In this document: positions 2,596-25,228 of the stretch, in pieces
How the letters are laid out: each line of letters begins with the position of its first letter
Numbering within the stretch: the first letter of the stretch is position 1
Virus record (IMG/VR): IMGVR_UViG_3300032893_000262
Location: 1-25,228 of that record
DNA: 25,228 bases
Direction: 5' to 3' (one strand)
Source of the DNA: a virus
The notes under the pieces: generated by a model
What the model was told of the DNA's origin: nothing
Seen by the model: the letters and a program-made list of their open reading frames with translations, nothing else
Database searches by the model: none
Translations under genes and position numbers: made by a program

Positions 2596-2994
2596 ATGGC
2601 ATGGCCTAAAGGAAAACCGCGCCCGCCCAATGCAGGCCGCAAAAAGGGGACGCCCAATAAGAAGACGTTGGAAGCCCAACTCCTTTGCGAGAAATTGGGT
2701 GTCGATCCGTTTGAGTTTTTGCTTTTGGTGGTCAAGGGCGATGAAAAAGCGTTGGGCTACAAAAAGCCAAAGATCATTCTGGACGCTTTAGGCAAAGCTC
2801 ACCGCGTGCCCTGGATCACGCTTCCCAATCGATTGGCCGCTGCAAGCGAAGCCTGTGAGTATGTCAGGCCCAAGAGAAAGGCCATTGAACATACGGGAAA
2901 AGATGGCGAGGCTTTATTTCAATCCTTAACCGATGTACTGAAGAGCCTTGAATCTCAATCAACAGCGCCAATTATTTCAGAATCTCAGGAGTGA
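2596..2994 (+). CDS. terS: Terminase small subunit
   Basis: This 132-residue protein is probably the DNA-recognition subunit of the packaging terminase. It begins MAWPKGKPRPPNAGRKKG and continues TPNKKTLEAQL, a basic 'GRKKGTPNKKT' opening very common in phage small terminase homologues. A helical region with alternating charge follows (LLCEKLGVDPFEFLLLVVKG, then DALGKAHRV). The position immediately before the large subunit supports this. The gene is preceded by an AGGATG site at 2585-2590. Its 3' end overlaps the large subunit by 47 bases, long for this operon but consistent with translational coupling. The lack of an obvious helix-turn-helix keeps confidence below certainty. Confidence 0.7.
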   Translation: MAWPKGKPRPPNAGRKKGTPNKKTLEAQLLCEKLGVDPFEFLLLVVKGDEKALGYKKPKIILDALGKAHRVPWITLPNRLAAASEACEYVRPKRKAIEHTGKDGEALFQSLTDVLKSLESQSTAPIISESQE

Positions 2995-4507
2995 TCCCGC
3001 TGCTCACATTGAGCAAATCCAGGGCGTCTCCACGCTTACAGAATTTCAAACGCGCATTGCGCGCGAAATAGCGGCTCACGACCGGATCGCTATTTCGGCC
3101 TGCCACGACGTGGGCAAGACCTTTTTGGTGTCCAAAATGGTGCTGTGGTTTGGCTCCGTATTTCGCGGGAGCAAGATCATCACAACAGCGCCTACGTGGA
3201 CGCAGGTTGAGCATTTGCTTTGGAGCGAGATCCGAGCTGGCTATAGCAACTCCAAGATCCGTTTGGGCGGGCGAATGCTCACCACGGAATGGAAGATTGA
3301 TAGCGATTGGTTTGCCATAGGACTTAGCCCTAAAGACGATGCGGATACGAGTGGCGGCGGGCAAGGGGCCACATCAGGCTTTCAGGGCTTTCACGCGCCT
3401 TATATCCTAGTGATCTTTGATGAGGCCACAGGCGTGCCAAGCAAACGCTGGATTCAAGCGCAAGGGATGCTCACATCCGCAAATGTGAAATTCGTGGCCA
3501 TTGGCAATCCCACCACAAAAAACTGTGAATTCTTTAAATGCTTTCAATCACGGCTTTGGCGCAAAATTTACATCAGTTGCTTTGACTCGCCCAACCTTCA
3601 AGCCAATGGGATCTTTAATATCAGTGATCTTGAGAAAGAGCTGAATGTCCTAAGAGAGCTAAGCGAAGAGAAAGCCTTTGAGCGGATTAAGAGCTACAAA
3701 GTTGTGGTGCCTGCACTCATCACGCTCTCCTGGGTTGTGGATCGCGCTTTTGTCTGGGGGCTAAAGCATCCGCTCTTTATCTCAAAAGTTTTGGGCCAAT
3801 TCCCGGATGAAGACGACTCCACGCTTATTCCTTTGGGTGTTGTGGAAAATGCCCAACGTAGGTTGCCGCCGCCTAAATCTAACGGCCGCTGTGGCATTGG
3901 CGTTGATGTGGCTCGATATGGTTCGGACAAATCAGTCATTACGTCCATTCTTGGTGATCAGGTCATGCCCTCTCGCGTGATGGTGAAGAAGGACACCATG
4001 GAGATTGCGGGCCAAACAGTAAGAGAGATTGACGACCGGATCAAGGCGGGCACTTATCCATCGCTGATTTCCGTGGGAGTGGATGCCACGGGCATCGGGT
4101 CTGGTGTGGTGGACTCGCTTCTTGAATCTCAGCGAAATGGCATTATTCATAGGGAAGTCACCATCGTGGAAGTGCATTTTGGCCAGGGTTTTGACTACAT
4201 CCGGGATGAGACTGAGCGCGAAGAGTGCAAAGGGCTTTACATCAATCGCAAGGCCAAGCTTTATGTGGAACTGGCCAGCGATCTCAAAAACGCATTGTGT
4301 TTGCCCGAAGACTCGGTTTATCTGGAAGAGCTTCCCACAATTGTCAGTGAGTACGATTCGAAAGGCCGTCATGTCATTGAGAGCAAGGAAGACTATCGGG
4401 ATCGCACGGGCCGCTCTAGCCCGGATCATTCCGATGCTTTAGCGATTGCAAATGAGATGCGGAAACAACTATCGCCTTCGGCAGGCGTAATAAGGGTGAT
4501 TCGATGA
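2948..4507 (+). CDS. terL: Terminase large subunit (ATPase-nuclease)
   Basis: This 519-residue protein is the packaging motor and headful or site nuclease. The N-terminal ATPase has a Walker A-like P-loop ACHDVGKTFL (51-60, Lys57), a Walker B strand YILVIFDEA with Asp158 and catalytic Glu159, and a coupling motif AIGNPTT (184-190). The C-terminal RNase H-like nuclease has GIGVDVARYG (Asp320), VGVDATGIG (Asp379) and SPDHSDALA (Asp493/Asp496), giving the expected acidic triad. The start is taken as TTG 2948, the first start in the frame that gives a full N terminus; it has a weak GAAGAG site upstream. It overlaps the small subunit and ends ATGA into the next gene. The identity is secure and the exact start less so. 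Confidence 0.95.
   Translation: MNLNQQRQLFQNLRSDPAAHIEQIQGVSTLTEFQTRIAREIAAHDRIAISACHDVGKTFLVSKMVLWFGSVFRGSKIITTAPTWTQVEHLLWSEIRAGYSNSKIRLGGRMLTTEWKIDSDWFAIGLSPKDDADTSGGGQGATSGFQGFHAPYILVIFDEATGVPSKRWIQAQGMLTSANVKFVAIGNPTTKNCEFFKCFQSRLWRKIYISCFDSPNLQANGIFNISDLEKELNVLRELSEEKAFERIKSYKVVVPALITLSWVVDRAFVWGLKHPLFISKVLGQFPDEDDSTLIPLGVVENAQRRLPPPKSNGRCGIGVDVARYGSDKSVITSILGDQVMPSRVMVKKDTMEIAGQTVREIDDRIKAGTYPSLISVGVDATGIGSGVVDSLLESQRNGIIHREVTIVEVHFGQGFDYIRDETEREECKGLYINRKAKLYVELASDLKNALCLPEDSVYLEELPTIVSEYDSKGRHVIESKEDYRDRTGRSSPDHSDALAIANEMRKQLSPSAGVIRVIR
3064..3097 (+). other. Perfect 10-bp hairpin within terL
   Basis: CGAAATAGCG (3064-3073) is exactly complementary to CGCTATTTCG (3088-3097), with a 14-base loop. 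It lies shortly before the P-loop codons of the large terminase gene. No T-tract follows it. Confidence 0.7.
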
Positions 4508-4713
4508 GAGACTTTATCATGCAATTCTTTAAATATGATCATTTGCCTGAACATTTGCAGGCAATCAGTAAACCATTTGCTGAAGTGGCTGAGCTAATGC
4601 ATACATTGCTTCCTTCAAATCCAGAAAGATCGGCAATGCTAAGAAAATTACTGGAAGCAAAAGACTGTGCGGTAAGGGCACAACTTGGAGGTTTTCTTGG
4701 CCGAAATGCTTGA
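4504..4713 (+). CDS. Acb2/Tad1 hairpin-family-like small protein (possible anti-defence)
   Basis: This protein has 69 residues, or 64 if it starts at ATG 4519. From residue 8 it reads FFKYDHLPEHLQAISKPFAE, then LAEx-type helices, LPSNPERSAMLRKLLEAKD and AVRA. An aromatic and YxHLP opening, then two helices joined by 'LP.NPERS..LRKLLEAKD.AVRA', resembles small phage proteins of the Acb2/Tad1 helical hairpin group (pattern F.YH.P...Q...Y..I...A..LA..I.....P.S.E.S.A...L.EA...ANAAIA). Members of that group sequester cyclic nucleotides and block CBASS or Thoeris defence. It overlaps the terL stop (ATGA 4504-4507). The similarity is judged by eye and most relatives are untested. It could equally be an uncharacterised family of this shape. 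Confidence 0.5.
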   Translation: MRDFIMQFFKYDHLPEHLQAISKPFAEVAELMHTLLPSNPERSAMLRKLLEAKDCAVRAQLGGFLGRNA

Positions 4714-4879
4714 GCGAATTGAGCCCAAATTAGTCGAGTACATTCAGGTGGGCGCGTATAAGATTTGCCGCACTTCTCGTTTCACGTGGTGGATTGAGCG
4801 CGAAGGTGGTGAAGGCATGGAAGTGAGAGAAACCACCATGATCGAATTATTTAATATTTTCTGGGGTGAACATTTTTGA
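4697..4879 (+). CDS. Small hypothetical protein (60 aa), TTG start
   Basis: I do not recognise this protein. I chose TTG 4697 because GGAGG lies at 4687-4691 with a six-base spacer; a TTG at 4685 lies upstream of that site and an ATG at 4706 is too far from it. The product reads MAEMLERIEPKLVEYIQVGA, then KICRTSRFTWWIEREGGEG and METREx-like residues before ELFNIFWGEHF. It is short, acidic and aromatic, without a membrane segment. It overlaps the preceding anti-defence-like gene by 17 bases and ends TTGA into the next. With its neighbours it forms a three-gene group of tiny proteins between terL and the head genes, a common place for accessory genes in phages. Confidence 0.55.
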   Translation: MAEMLERIEPKLVEYIQVGAYKICRTSRFTWWIEREGGEGMEVRETTMIELFNIFWGEHF

Positions 4880-5148
4880 CGACTTCTAAAGAATCCAGCA
4901 TTGATGCAGTCATCGAAGAGATGGGCAAAGAAGTAAAAGAGTGCCGTGCCTTTGTCTTTATGGCGCTTGGGCAGAATGGGGACTTTGCCCATTACGCAAC
5001 CGGCGATTTGGTGTCTGTTTTAGGATGCGCAAAAGCTCTTGAATCCTACTGGCGCGCGAAGGCTGTTCAGCATATCGATAAGCAAATGGGCCAAGTCGTC
5101 ACCACACAGAAAGGCAAGAATGAAAAGCCCCCTTCGACCGCTCACTAA
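4876..5148 (+). CDS. Small hypothetical protein (90 aa), TTG start
   Basis: I do not recognise this protein. It starts at TTG 4876, overlapping the previous stop as TTGA, with GGGGTGA at 4863-4869. The body (IDAVIEEMGKEVKECRAFVF and ALGQNGDFAHYATGDLVSVL) is probably helical and continues GCAKALESYWRAKAVQHIDK before a polar, lysine-rich tail. There is no signal peptide or clear membrane segment. Its last 29 bases overlap the head morphogenesis gene, whose own ATG and ribosome site lie inside it. An ATG at 4921 is a possible shorter start but has no well-spaced ribosome site. Confidence 0.55.
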   Translation: MTTSKESSIDAVIEEMGKEVKECRAFVFMALGQNGDFAHYATGDLVSVLGCAKALESYWRAKAVQHIDKQMGQVVTTQKGKNEKPPSTAH

Positions 5149-6262
5149 GTCTTCTCGCTATGAAGACTACATGCGTGGGCGCGATATCGCGCTTGAGCGG
5201 TTGTTACAGAAATACTTGCGCCATGTGGGGGCCACGGTTTCAGTCCTAAAGAAAAAGGCCGCGCAAATCGCGGTTCATTTGGTTCATGCAGGAGTAACTC
5301 ATTATGACTTCAAGAAAAACCGCGAGCAATTCGAGAAACAGCTTGAGCCGTGGTTTAATATTGCAGCTCAAGAGACAGACTCTTTATTGCGACGACTCAG
5401 GCGCACTACTTATGCGCTTTCCTTTGCGGGACAAAGCGAAGCTATTGCGCGGTCTACTGGAAAAGCCGAAGCATGGCATCTTTCGACTAGTGATCTTCAC
5501 GGAGTTGAAAGACGGCCCGCACCGAGTGGTGGCCAACTTTCCATTCGAACAGATTTTCTTTATTCCAGGCTCTTACGCAAAGTGGTGGACGCGTTTCAAC
5601 TCTCGCAAGTCCAAGCGTCGGGTGAAAACAATCAAGAAACCATCCAAGACGTCCTTGCGCGGATAGACCGCGCGTTCCCGCGTCGGATCACTGACACCAA
5701 GCCGCGCCCGATGGCAAGGCTCCGCGAAGCAGGACGGCTTTTTGACAAGCCAACGTTAAACGATGGCCAAGGGGTTTCAGCGGGCACCATCGATCCCGAA
5801 GAGTGGGATCAAATCCTAGAAGACTATTTCACGGAGCAATTTCCGCCCGACTCGCCTAACCGCACGATGTATAGCCGGGTTTTCTACACAGACGCGCCCG
5901 AAGATCAGGGCCGCTATGAGTGGGAAGTGGAAGCGGACGTGACTCAAGACTTCGTACAAAGTGTGCGTGATGGGGAAAATGACGCGGCAAAGATGCAGGG
6001 CATTAACGATTTTCAGTGGATCTCAATAGTTGACTCAAAGACTGATGATTGTTGTCTGTGGCGAGATGGCTTGACAACTAGCGAAATTGAGCGCGAACTA
6101 GAATCAGACCACTCAGGGGATGACTGTGACGCAACGGTTCCGCCCGCGCACTTCAACTGCCGTTGTAGATTAGCGCCCATGACCGAAGATTTACCCGAAC
6201 CGGATTTGACCCCAGGACTCCCAAGCTTCGATGAATGGCTTGATGCCAAGTCGCGCGAATGA
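5120..6262 (+). CDS. Head morphogenesis protein, Mu gpF / SPP1 gp7-like
   Basis: This 380-residue protein belongs to the phage Mu F family of minor head proteins, which are packaged in the procapsid near the portal. The diagnostic part is C-terminal: WISIVDSKTDDCCLWRDG (300-317) and VPPAHFNCRCRLAPMTED (340-357). These match the family pattern of a 'D..TD..C..l.G' segment followed by 'PP.H..CRC'. The Cys/His residues (311, 312, 336, 344, 347, 349) may bind metal or form a knot. The first 100 residues are basic and helical. The frame is open from 5039, but ATG 5120 is chosen because an AAAGG site precedes it and the extra 27 residues look unrelated to the family. The order is unusual, since this gene normally follows the portal gene. 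Confidence 0.85.
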   Translation: MKSPLRPLTKSSRYEDYMRGRDIALERLLQKYLRHVGATVSVLKKKAAQIAVHLVHAGVTHYDFKKNREQFEKQLEPWFNIAAQETDSLLRRLRRTTYALSFAGQSEAIARSTGKAEAWHLSTSDLHGVERRPAPSGGQLSIRTDFLYSRLLRKVVDAFQLSQVQASGENNQETIQDVLARIDRAFPRRITDTKPRPMARLREAGRLFDKPTLNDGQGVSAGTIDPEEWDQILEDYFTEQFPPDSPNRTMYSRVFYTDAPEDQGRYEWEVEADVTQDFVQSVRDGENDAAKMQGINDFQWISIVDSKTDDCCLWRDGLTTSEIERELESDHSGDDCDATVPPAHFNCRCRLAPMTEDLPEPDLTPGLPSFDEWLDAKSRE

Positions 6263-6271
6263 AAGAGGGGA

Positions 6272-8083
6272 ATGGCTAAGAATAAAGAAGTAGTACCCAC
6301 ACCTATTGCCCAATCTCTCCAAGAGCGCAAAGTTGCTCTTCAAGTCTTAGCCGCACAAGCCGAATTCGATCCCAAAACATATCTCTTCGATGACCGTTTC
6401 AAGCCTGGCAATCCTTCTGATTTTCCTTCCGTTCACACTATTCCCGAAATGATGTCCTGCCTTGAAAGCCAAAAGGATGTGGAAGCTTCGGGCGTTTTTA
6501 TTGAGGCCACCAAAGATGGGCGCTACAGGTATAGAAAATTCGAAAACAAAGCTCAGCTCAAAGAAGGCTGGAAGCGCGGAAACTCCCTGCGCAAGATGCG
6601 CGAGGCGCGCTTTAGGGAAAACTCGCCCACATGGGCTGGCCAAAATGCTGGGCTAGTCGGAGACGATTTTGTCCCTTTGCTTGGTGGCCCCTTTAATAAA
6701 CAACCTTATCTTTATGACTACCTCCGCGCGCACGCGTACTGTTTCCACGAATACCATCACCACCCGCTCGCGCGGGCAATCGTACATATTACCCGGGATT
6801 TTGTTTTGGGTGGTGGATATCGAGTAGACTCCGAAGATGAAAAAGCATTAGTCCTTTGGCGCGCGTTTGAAGAAGCCAATCAGCTTGAGCAGATGATGGA
6901 GGACATTGTTAAAGAAGCCTCTATCTATGGCGAAAACATGATCTGGTGGCTTCCCAATAACGAAACGTTCATTGGCTATAACGATCGCCCAGGTCAAGAG
7001 CCACCCCAAGGTTTGATCCCGCGCATTCGTTTGATTGACCCATCGACGTGTTGGGAAATCGTGACAATGCCCGAAGACATTCACCGCGTTTTGTTTTACT
7101 GGCTGGTGTTTCCCACCCAGTATCAAATCAAAACGGGATCGCTTGCGGGCCAGCCTGTTCCCACTTCAAAATTCATCACCCAACAAATCGCTGCAAGCGA
7201 TGTGATGCATTTTAAGTACAACTGCGTATCAAACGAAAAGCGCGGGCGTTCGGATCTCTTTCCGGTCTTGGGCTATCTCAAGTGGGTGAGGGATTGCATT
7301 AACTACAAGCTCATTGCCTTAAAGAAACAAGCCGCATGGACGGAAGACGTGATTGTCCAGGGTTCACAGGCTGACGTGGATCAAATCTCAGCGGCTCTTA
7401 GGCAACTGGGCGAGTTTGAGCCTGCTGGCTCACGTTTCGTTCATACCGATAAAATCAAGCGCGAGTATCTGGCCACAGCCGTTGGGAGCCAGGGAAAAGA
7501 TGAAACCATCATGGAGGGCATTTCCATGATCGCGGCGGGCACGCAAATCCCAGTCACTTACTTTGGGCTTTCTATGCAGGCAGGCGCCTCAAGAGCGGGT
7601 GCTGTGGTGGGCACGGAACCTGTGGCTAAGAAATTTGAGCGAAGACAACTGGAAGTGACCCGCGTGATCAAAGCCCTTTGGCGTAAGTTTCAAGATCAGT
7701 ACGGCATCAAAGGCGCTGAGTGCTCTGTCACGTTCCCTGAGATCATCACGCAAGATCGCACGGCCAAACTAAAAGACATCAAGTTTGCGGAAGATTGCGG
7801 CTACATCGCGCGCTCAACTGCTGCACCGATTGCGGCCAAAGAACTAGAGCTGGGCGATGAGTATGATTACGACAAAGAAAAAGCCCTGATCTCTGAAGAA
7901 GAAGATCCGCCCATTATGCCAAATATTGGAGCGCCTTTAACAGCACCAGCGGGTAGCCCGGCCCAAGGTGGCGGGGGAAGTGCCCCAAAGTCTCCATCCT
8001 TGAGTGGTGGCACTTCCCCCTCGGCGATGACAAGCCAAGACCGGGCTGACATCAAGAATCAAGATAGGACGCCCATTCAATGA
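6272..8083 (+). CDS. Portal protein
   Basis: This 603-residue protein is the dodecameric portal through which DNA enters the capsid. After a variable N terminus, the core starts near residue 145 with YLYDYLRAHAYCFHEYHHHP and LARAIVHITRDFVLGGGYRV. It continues VKEASIYGENMIWWLP (213-228), RIRLIDPSTCWEI (251-263), then MHFKYN and GRSDLFPVLGYLKWVRDCIN. These are typical wing and stem segments of portal proteins; the last, with VEATG-like GISMIAAGTQIPVTYFGLS, precedes the clip and tunnel part. The C terminus (from about 545) is acidic and then rich in Gly, Pro and Ser, probably flexible. AAAGAGGGG at 6262-6270 gives a strong ribosome site. It overlaps the next gene by ATGA. Confidence 0.88.
   Translation: MAKNKEVVPTPIAQSLQERKVALQVLAAQAEFDPKTYLFDDRFKPGNPSDFPSVHTIPEMMSCLESQKDVEASGVFIEATKDGRYRYRKFENKAQLKEGWKRGNSLRKMREARFRENSPTWAGQNAGLVGDDFVPLLGGPFNKQPYLYDYLRAHAYCFHEYHHHPLARAIVHITRDFVLGGGYRVDSEDEKALVLWRAFEEANQLEQMMEDIVKEASIYGENMIWWLPNNETFIGYNDRPGQEPPQGLIPRIRLIDPSTCWEIVTMPEDIHRVLFYWLVFPTQYQIKTGSLAGQPVPTSKFITQQIAASDVMHFKYNCVSNEKRGRSDLFPVLGYLKWVRDCINYKLIALKKQAAWTEDVIVQGSQADVDQISAALRQLGEFEPAGSRFVHTDKIKREYLATAVGSQGKDETIMEGISMIAAGTQIPVTYFGLSMQAGASRAGAVVGTEPVAKKFERRQLEVTRVIKALWRKFQDQYGIKGAECSVTFPEIITQDRTAKLKDIKFAEDCGYIARSTAAPIAAKELELGDEYDYDKEKALISEEEDPPIMPNIGAPLTAPAGSPAQGGGGSAPKSPSLSGGTSPSAMTSQDRADIKNQDRTPIQ
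7973..8020 (+). other. Perfect 12-bp inverted repeat near the 3' end of the portal gene
   Basis: GGGGGAAGTGCC (7973-7984) pairs exactly with GGCACTTCCCCC (8009-8020), leaving a 24-base loop. It lies in the Gly/Pro/Ser-rich tail of the portal coding region, about 60 bases before the portal stop and the next gene's ATG. No T-tract follows, so RNA processing or stability is more likely than termination. Confidence 0.85.
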
Positions 8084-24743: not shown

Positions 24744-24838
24744 ACTGGTTTAACTGGCCCCCGACGGGCCCCCATTTGGTGGTCATTGTAGCCTGCGCTG
24801 TGTTTGCCATCATTCTTTTTTACCTGGGGCTTTCATGA
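24740..24838 (+). CDS. Very short single-span membrane protein (32 aa)
   Basis: ATG 24740 overlaps the preceding stop (ATGA) and AAGGAAG lies at 24725-24731. The product is MNWFNWPPTGPHLVVIVACA followed by VFAIILFYLGLS: a Trp/Pro-rich start and one 18-20-residue membrane span. It ends ATGA into the endolysin gene. Single-span mini proteins next to endolysins are often accessory to holins; this is inference from shape and position. Confidence 0.6.
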   Translation: MNWFNWPPTGPHLVVIVACAVFAIILFYLGLS

Positions 24839-25228
24839 CTGAAGCTGACGCTGTAGCCAGATATGGCCCTATTGTGAATGGGGTTTGGGCCAATGAAGCC
24901 CAGTGGTGCCAGGTGATGAAGATCCCAGCTCCCCTTCTTTCAGCAGGCACGTGGATCAATTCTATCAATGGGCTCCCCGTCACGCGTCTTTACTGCAATA
25001 CAGACATGCAAGGGCCTCTTTTTCGTGTACTTCTTCGAATCTATCAGATGGGCCTAGTCAGACAACTCAAGACGTTTGATGGGCTTTTTGAGATTAGGGA
25101 CGTCAGGGGCGAGCCCGGGAAACTCTCTTGCCATTCTTACGCTTTAGCCATTGACATCAATGCGGCCACCAATCGGTTAGGACAGACGCCGACGATGGAC
25201 CCGCTTATCGTCCAGTATTTTAAAGATG
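24835..25228 (+). CDS. M15-family peptidase endolysin (partial, C terminus beyond window)
   Basis: The ATG at 24835 overlaps the previous stop, and 131 codons are visible before the window ends. The segment around residue 88 reads IRDVRGEPGKLSCHSYALAI followed by DINAATN. His100 and Asp107, spaced HxxxxxxD, fit the zinc-binding motif of M15 peptidases (VanY, L-alanyl-D-glutamate endolysins). The 'S.H..G.A.D.N...N' pattern is the usual family signature. The enzyme would cut peptidoglycan stem peptides. It has no signal peptide in the first 20 residues, so it needs a holin to reach its target. The remaining zinc ligand must lie beyond the end. Confidence 0.82.
   Translation, partial: MTEADAVARYGPIVNGVWANEAQWCQVMKIPAPLLSAGTWINSINGLPVTRLYCNTDMQGPLFRVLLRIYQMGLVRQLKTFDGLFEIRDVRGEPGKLSCHSYALAIDINAATNRLGQTPTMDPLIVQYFKD

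Follow-up and report, generated by a model that had tools for sequence, protein, structure and literature searches.

The gene and its setting

The window analysed here is a whole stretch of 25,228 bases, a virus record without attached host, for which no near DNA relative was found among the phages searched. Its ORF of 69 codons, with the translation MRDFIMQFFKYDHLPEHLQAISKPFAEVAELMHTLLPSNPERSAMLRKLLEAKDCAVRAQLGGFLGRNA, lies directly behind the gene for the terminase large subunit (terL), as the initial annotation had stated, and the start of the one overlaps the stop of the other (Table 1). A candidate start codon overlapping a stop codon was found in 101 of the 176 family members. The protein opens with the aromatic FFKYDHLP and carries LRKLLEAKDCAVRA in its second long helix; the YxHLP opening and the helix end of the LRKLLEAKD.AVRA type, both pointed out previously, are present as described. 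On the 3' side of the gene are two small ORFs, a head-morphogenesis-like gene and a portal gene.

Table 1. Features at the locus of the 69-residue protein (positions in the window)
Feature	Position	Strand	Remark
terL, terminase large subunit, upstream neighbour	2948-4507	+	phrog_2, E 8.5e-29
AAGGG, Shine-Dalgarno-like	4492-4496	+	7 nt 5' of the ATG; from the sequence
ATGA, ATG of the 69-codon gene overlapping the terL stop codon	4504-4507	+	translational coupling
69-residue helical-hairpin protein of the phrog_1761/5120 family, diverged Acb2-like candidate sponge	4504-4713	+	ATG at 4504, TGA stop at 4711-4713
Predicted short N-terminal helix (residues 4-9) and YxHL segment (Y11, H13, L14)	4513-4545	+	codons 4-14
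Hairpin helix 1 (long), predicted	4549-4608	+	codons 16-35
Hairpin helix 2 (long), predicted, with the invariant RKLLEAKDCxVRA block	4621-4683	+	codons 40-60
Small ORF	4685-4879
Small ORF	4876-5148
Head-morphogenesis-like gene	~5168-6262
Portal gene	6272-8083

Elsewhere in the window, two glycosyltransferase-like ORFs are located just 5' of the terminase genes (813-2572), the first of which (813-1556) has a weak GlfT1 match and the second (1553-2572) no family match. At the other end, a truncated ORF (24835-25227) contains an M15-peptidase-like HSYALAIDIN motif, recognized by eye, and is a possible endolysin cut off at the window end.

A large family without assigned function

The 69-residue protein is a member of phrog_1761 (5.5e-28) and phrog_5120 (3.6e-21), neither of which has an assigned function in the annotation; no paper naming either family was found in the literature searched, and an earlier naming is possible. 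Relatives are encoded in at least 591 IMG/VR stretches, 301 phage records, 25 plasmid records and 123 stretches of GTDB genome contigs, the last belonging to Proteobacteria, Actinobacteria, Planctomycetes, Verrucomicrobia, Bacteroidota, cyanobacteria and other phyla. Therefore, the ORF is real and no chance ORF, and the family as a whole is very large, conserved and so far "hypothetical".

Among 62 aligned members, F9, H13, L14, A29, P37 and E41 are invariant, together with R58 and an uninterrupted block in the second long helix (R47, K48, L49, L50, E51, A52, K53, D54 and C55), and position 11 (Y11 in our protein) holds Tyr or Phe in all but two of the 62, i.e. in 60.

Two relatives are of interest in themselves. 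A longer one of 122 residues in BFVD, A0A6G6XYP8 of Ochrobactrum phage vB_OspP_OH, is named Anti-TRAP domain-containing and possibly represents a fusion of the hairpin with a zinc-binding domain. A contig of the cyanobacterium Stenomitos rutilans contains two family copies (L291 and L293) about 100 kb apart, possibly in two prophages.

Profile comparison with Acb2 and Tad1

When searched singly, the 69-residue protein had no match to PF24729 (Acb2_Tad1_hairpin) at E 0.1 and fails the gathering cut-off of that family (27 bits), whereas the controls T4 Vs.4 and Xandras gp101 scored 71 bits (7e-20) and 59 bits (5e-16), respectively. PADLOC returned no match, and the searches of Pfam, NCBIfam and PDB sequences gave nothing usable or convincing. 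Seven of the 62 family members matched PF24729, the best at E 0.005 and all under the cut-off, and our protein had a weak match (E 0.014) to phrog_1454, the family of Xandras gp101. The similarities to Occludin_ELL (E 0.014) and Dps, sub-threshold and either eukaryotic or partial, were judged to be chance, and a phmmer match of L255 to LRRTM (2e-4) was taken as spurious.

We built profiles of the family of the 69-residue protein (A), of Xandras-type Acb2 (phrog_1454; B) and of PaMx33-type Acb2 (C). In hhalign, A against B scored 39.6 (E 4.9e-8 as a single comparison, probability 95%), compared with 20.5 for the best of 300 column shuffles and 8.7 for the reversed profile, with LPxNPERT..LRKLLEA of A and LPxGREKS..xTKLEEA of B as the aligned core. 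With the HMM of B run over 26,129 six-frame ORFs, family A supplied 99 of the best 100 outsiders, and in the reverse ranking with the profile of A, 49 of the best 50 outsiders were of B type. An E of 1 was reached by 93 of 176 real members and by none of 3,520 scrambled ones. The ORF database was made from fetched loci and is enriched in A and B, which does not explain the scarcity of other ORFs among the best matches or the result with scrambled members. T4 Vs.4 itself had an E of 2.9 against the HMM of B and ranked under most members of family A.

No signal was obtained between A and C, the experimentally solved PaMx33 type, and the comparison of B with C was weak too. At E 0.21 and without a shift of register, the profile of A aligned with PDB 9ptq ("Acb2 homolog 43", in complex with 3'cADPR, a Thoeris signal), which ranked below two chance-like matches to Dps and a further one; the profile of B matched 9ptq at 8e-12 and Tad1 chains at 1e-4. 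Families A and B were not seen together in any one locus, the loci being short.

The hhalign score relative to the shuffles and the reciprocal HMM rankings argue for shared ancestry of the family with the members of PF24729, at the level of the Acb2/Tad1 hairpin superfamily. The assignment by eye to Acb2/Tad1 in the initial annotation, which profile-profile comparison, reciprocal HMM searches, the predicted hairpin and BFVD uphold for the superfamily, does not extend to membership in PF24729. We place the family beside Acb2, as a sister branch in the hairpin superfamily; it is neither Acb2 by the Pfam definition nor Tad1, since Tad1 carries a beta-sheet domain.

Predicted fold and structure searches

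AlphaFold2 with 62 sequences gave a monomer model with a pLDDT of 91 and helices at residues 4-9, 16-35 and 40-60, in agreement with the helical hairpin expected by the initial annotation. In the Acb2 protomer, a short N-terminal helix is followed by two long antiparallel helices (PMC12043709), and the model, as a prediction, has the same helix order. Tad1 consists of an N-terminal beta-sheet domain joined to a helical hairpin (PMC12043709); such a domain is absent from our all-helical model. Both the homology to Acb2 and the hairpin are computed results.

Foldseek against the PDB returned generic helical hairpins, with no Acb2 chain among the matches listed, and for a control Acb2-type model 7uq2 headed the matches with the poor E of 1.9. 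In a second structure comparison 9ptq came first (Z 7.1, rmsd 2.5, 60 residues aligned), with unrelated hairpins at nearly equal Z. For a two-helix hairpin, Foldseek and VIA-align against the PDB are uninformative, and the absence of Acb2 there is no counter-evidence. In BFVD, a library of viral structures, after six matches to the family itself, 16 of the next 44 listed were named Acb2/Tad1 hairpin, the best with a probability of 0.99, at TM values of 0.60-0.70.

The generic hairpins in the PDB, together with the sub-threshold matches to helical families such as Occludin_ELL and Dps mentioned above, would suit a small helical protein that does something unrelated, such as a regulator or an adaptor, and has no more than a generic hairpin in common with Acb2. 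We give this very little credence, as the reciprocal HMM rankings and the shuffle controls far exceed what composition or helix bias produces.

Comparison with the pockets of known systems

Among the closest known systems are the Acb2 of the Xandras gp101 type (phrog_1454; PF24729) and 9ptq, to which the 69-residue protein is homologous at the profile level. They share a length of about 65-75 residues, the two-helix hairpin and a block LPx(G/N)xE(K/R)(S/T)...KLxEA where the second long helix begins. They differ in that our protein lies under the Pfam threshold, has R47 in place of T48 and CxVRA in place of FWANAA, and begins with FxYxHLP instead of RFxxHPP in the N-terminal segment.

The Acb2 of T4 (Vs.4, PDB 7uq2) and the PaMx33 group (8h2j) likewise possess a short N-terminal helix and a long antiparallel hairpin, whereas our protein is about 20 residues shorter, and the PaMx33-type profile has no detectable sequence match to the family. 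T4 Acb2 also has an N-terminal Tyr, and its KLxEA...RA is in register by eye. With Tad1, the family of the C-terminal hairpin domain (PF24729) is held in common, whereas the N-terminal beta-sheet domain is missing.

In T4 Acb2, Y8 is needed for the binding of cyclic nucleotides (Y8A) and T68M lowers the affinity (PMC12657230). In the by-eye register, T68, which in Acb2 is the threonine of a KT pair in the second long helix, aligns with Arg47, which is invariant in 62 of 62 members. This replacement of Thr by Arg suggests that the pocket is not simply that of T4 Acb2, and both the pocket and its ligand may differ from the cyclic-nucleotide pocket there. As a lead only, Y11 could take the role of T4 Y8, the N-terminal segments aligning poorly across the families.

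Genome position, composition and virion detection

The 69-codon gene is a compositionally foreign, low-GC island. Its GC is 0.40 and its GC3 0.286, against a GC3 of 0.52-0.56 in terL, the head-morphogenesis gene and the portal gene, and by GC it belongs to the bottom 0.3% of 210-nt windows. The flanks of 10 terL relatives contained no family member, these relatives (26-30% identity) being too distant to show recent gain.

Family genes are often located inside head/packaging modules. Those of Gordonia phage Ruthy and Vibrio phage 1.012.O are found amid capsid and connector genes, the sites seen being between head-tail connector genes and 3' of the capsid gene; in other annotated phages they lie behind the holin (Brevibacterium AGM3), near the RNA ligase (Acinetobacter ZZ1) or in the right arm (BigNuz). 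Frequent neighbours in the IMG/VR loci are terL, head-tail adaptor, portal and minor head proteins, and others are integrase, endolysin and recombination genes.

One member has been detected in virions. Mass spectrometry of virions purified on CsCl revealed gp28 of Roseovarius phage RPP1 (PMC4193335, Table 4), which is 50% identical to the 69-residue protein (E 1e-8) and clearly belongs to the family; equivalents of C55 and R58 are absent from it. In the record FR682616.1 (RPP1 orf28; L243:3929-4192) it is annotated as a structural protein on the grounds of this detection (PMC4193335). The presence of RPP1 gp28 there may mean that it has a structural role, that it is a sponge taken along in the virion, or that the preparation was contaminated with it.

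The 69-residue protein itself might be a minor component of the virion or of head assembly, its Acb2-like hairpin having been retained or put to new use as a structural oligomer. The RPP1 virions, the frequent adjacency to terL, head-tail adaptor, portal and minor head protein genes, and the copies between capsid and connector genes in Ruthy and 1.012.O are in keeping with this. We nevertheless consider it unlikely, in view of the variable gene position (AGM3, ZZ1, BigNuz), the absence of the family beside distantly related terL genes, the low GC of the gene and the homology to a sponge family.

If the virion carried the protein as a sponge and injected it with the DNA to act at once, the detection of RPP1 gp28 would be reconciled with the Acb2 homology, and the late-module location of the gene would agree with it. 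It is a distinctly improbable explanation, however, as the virion report is a single one and concerns a diverged member without the C55 and R58 equivalents.

Proposed function

We propose that the 69-residue protein is a small, all-helical, diverged sister of Acb2 that would act as an oligomer, holding a host nucleotide immune signal and thereby keeping the effector off; we regard this as fairly probable, and the family as probably a diverged sister family of Acb2 that serves as a nucleotide-signal sponge. Oligomerisation, nucleotide binding and anti-defence action are inferred here from the behaviour of Acb2 and Tad1 (PMC12043709). The protein would be translated together with terL, and several copies would assemble into a small oligomer by analogy with Acb2 and Tad1; Acb2 forms a hexamer whose pockets take up cyclic oligonucleotides. 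The interfaces of the proposed oligomer would bind and hold a signal made by the host, be it a cyclic oligonucleotide of CBASS or a cADPR-type signal of Thoeris. With the signal held, the effector would stay off and abortive infection would fail.

Further, and with considerable doubt, we raise the idea that this family, among the commonest unnamed ones of small phage proteins, with hundreds of phage genomes and hosts from numerous bacterial phyla, forms another major branch of the Acb2/Tad1 hairpin sponges. Its pocket, with an invariant Arg replacing Thr, would be rebuilt for a nucleotide immune signal that the known sponges do not take up, and some phages would carry the protein in the virion.

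If the sponge function is true, the blocking of nucleotide immune signals would become the role of a family that more than 300 sequenced phages, and viral contigs by the hundred, encode. An altered pocket would speak for another ligand, perhaps a defence signal commonly met by phages, and the findings suggest that Pfam and the defence databases miss a large share of the sponge repertoire.
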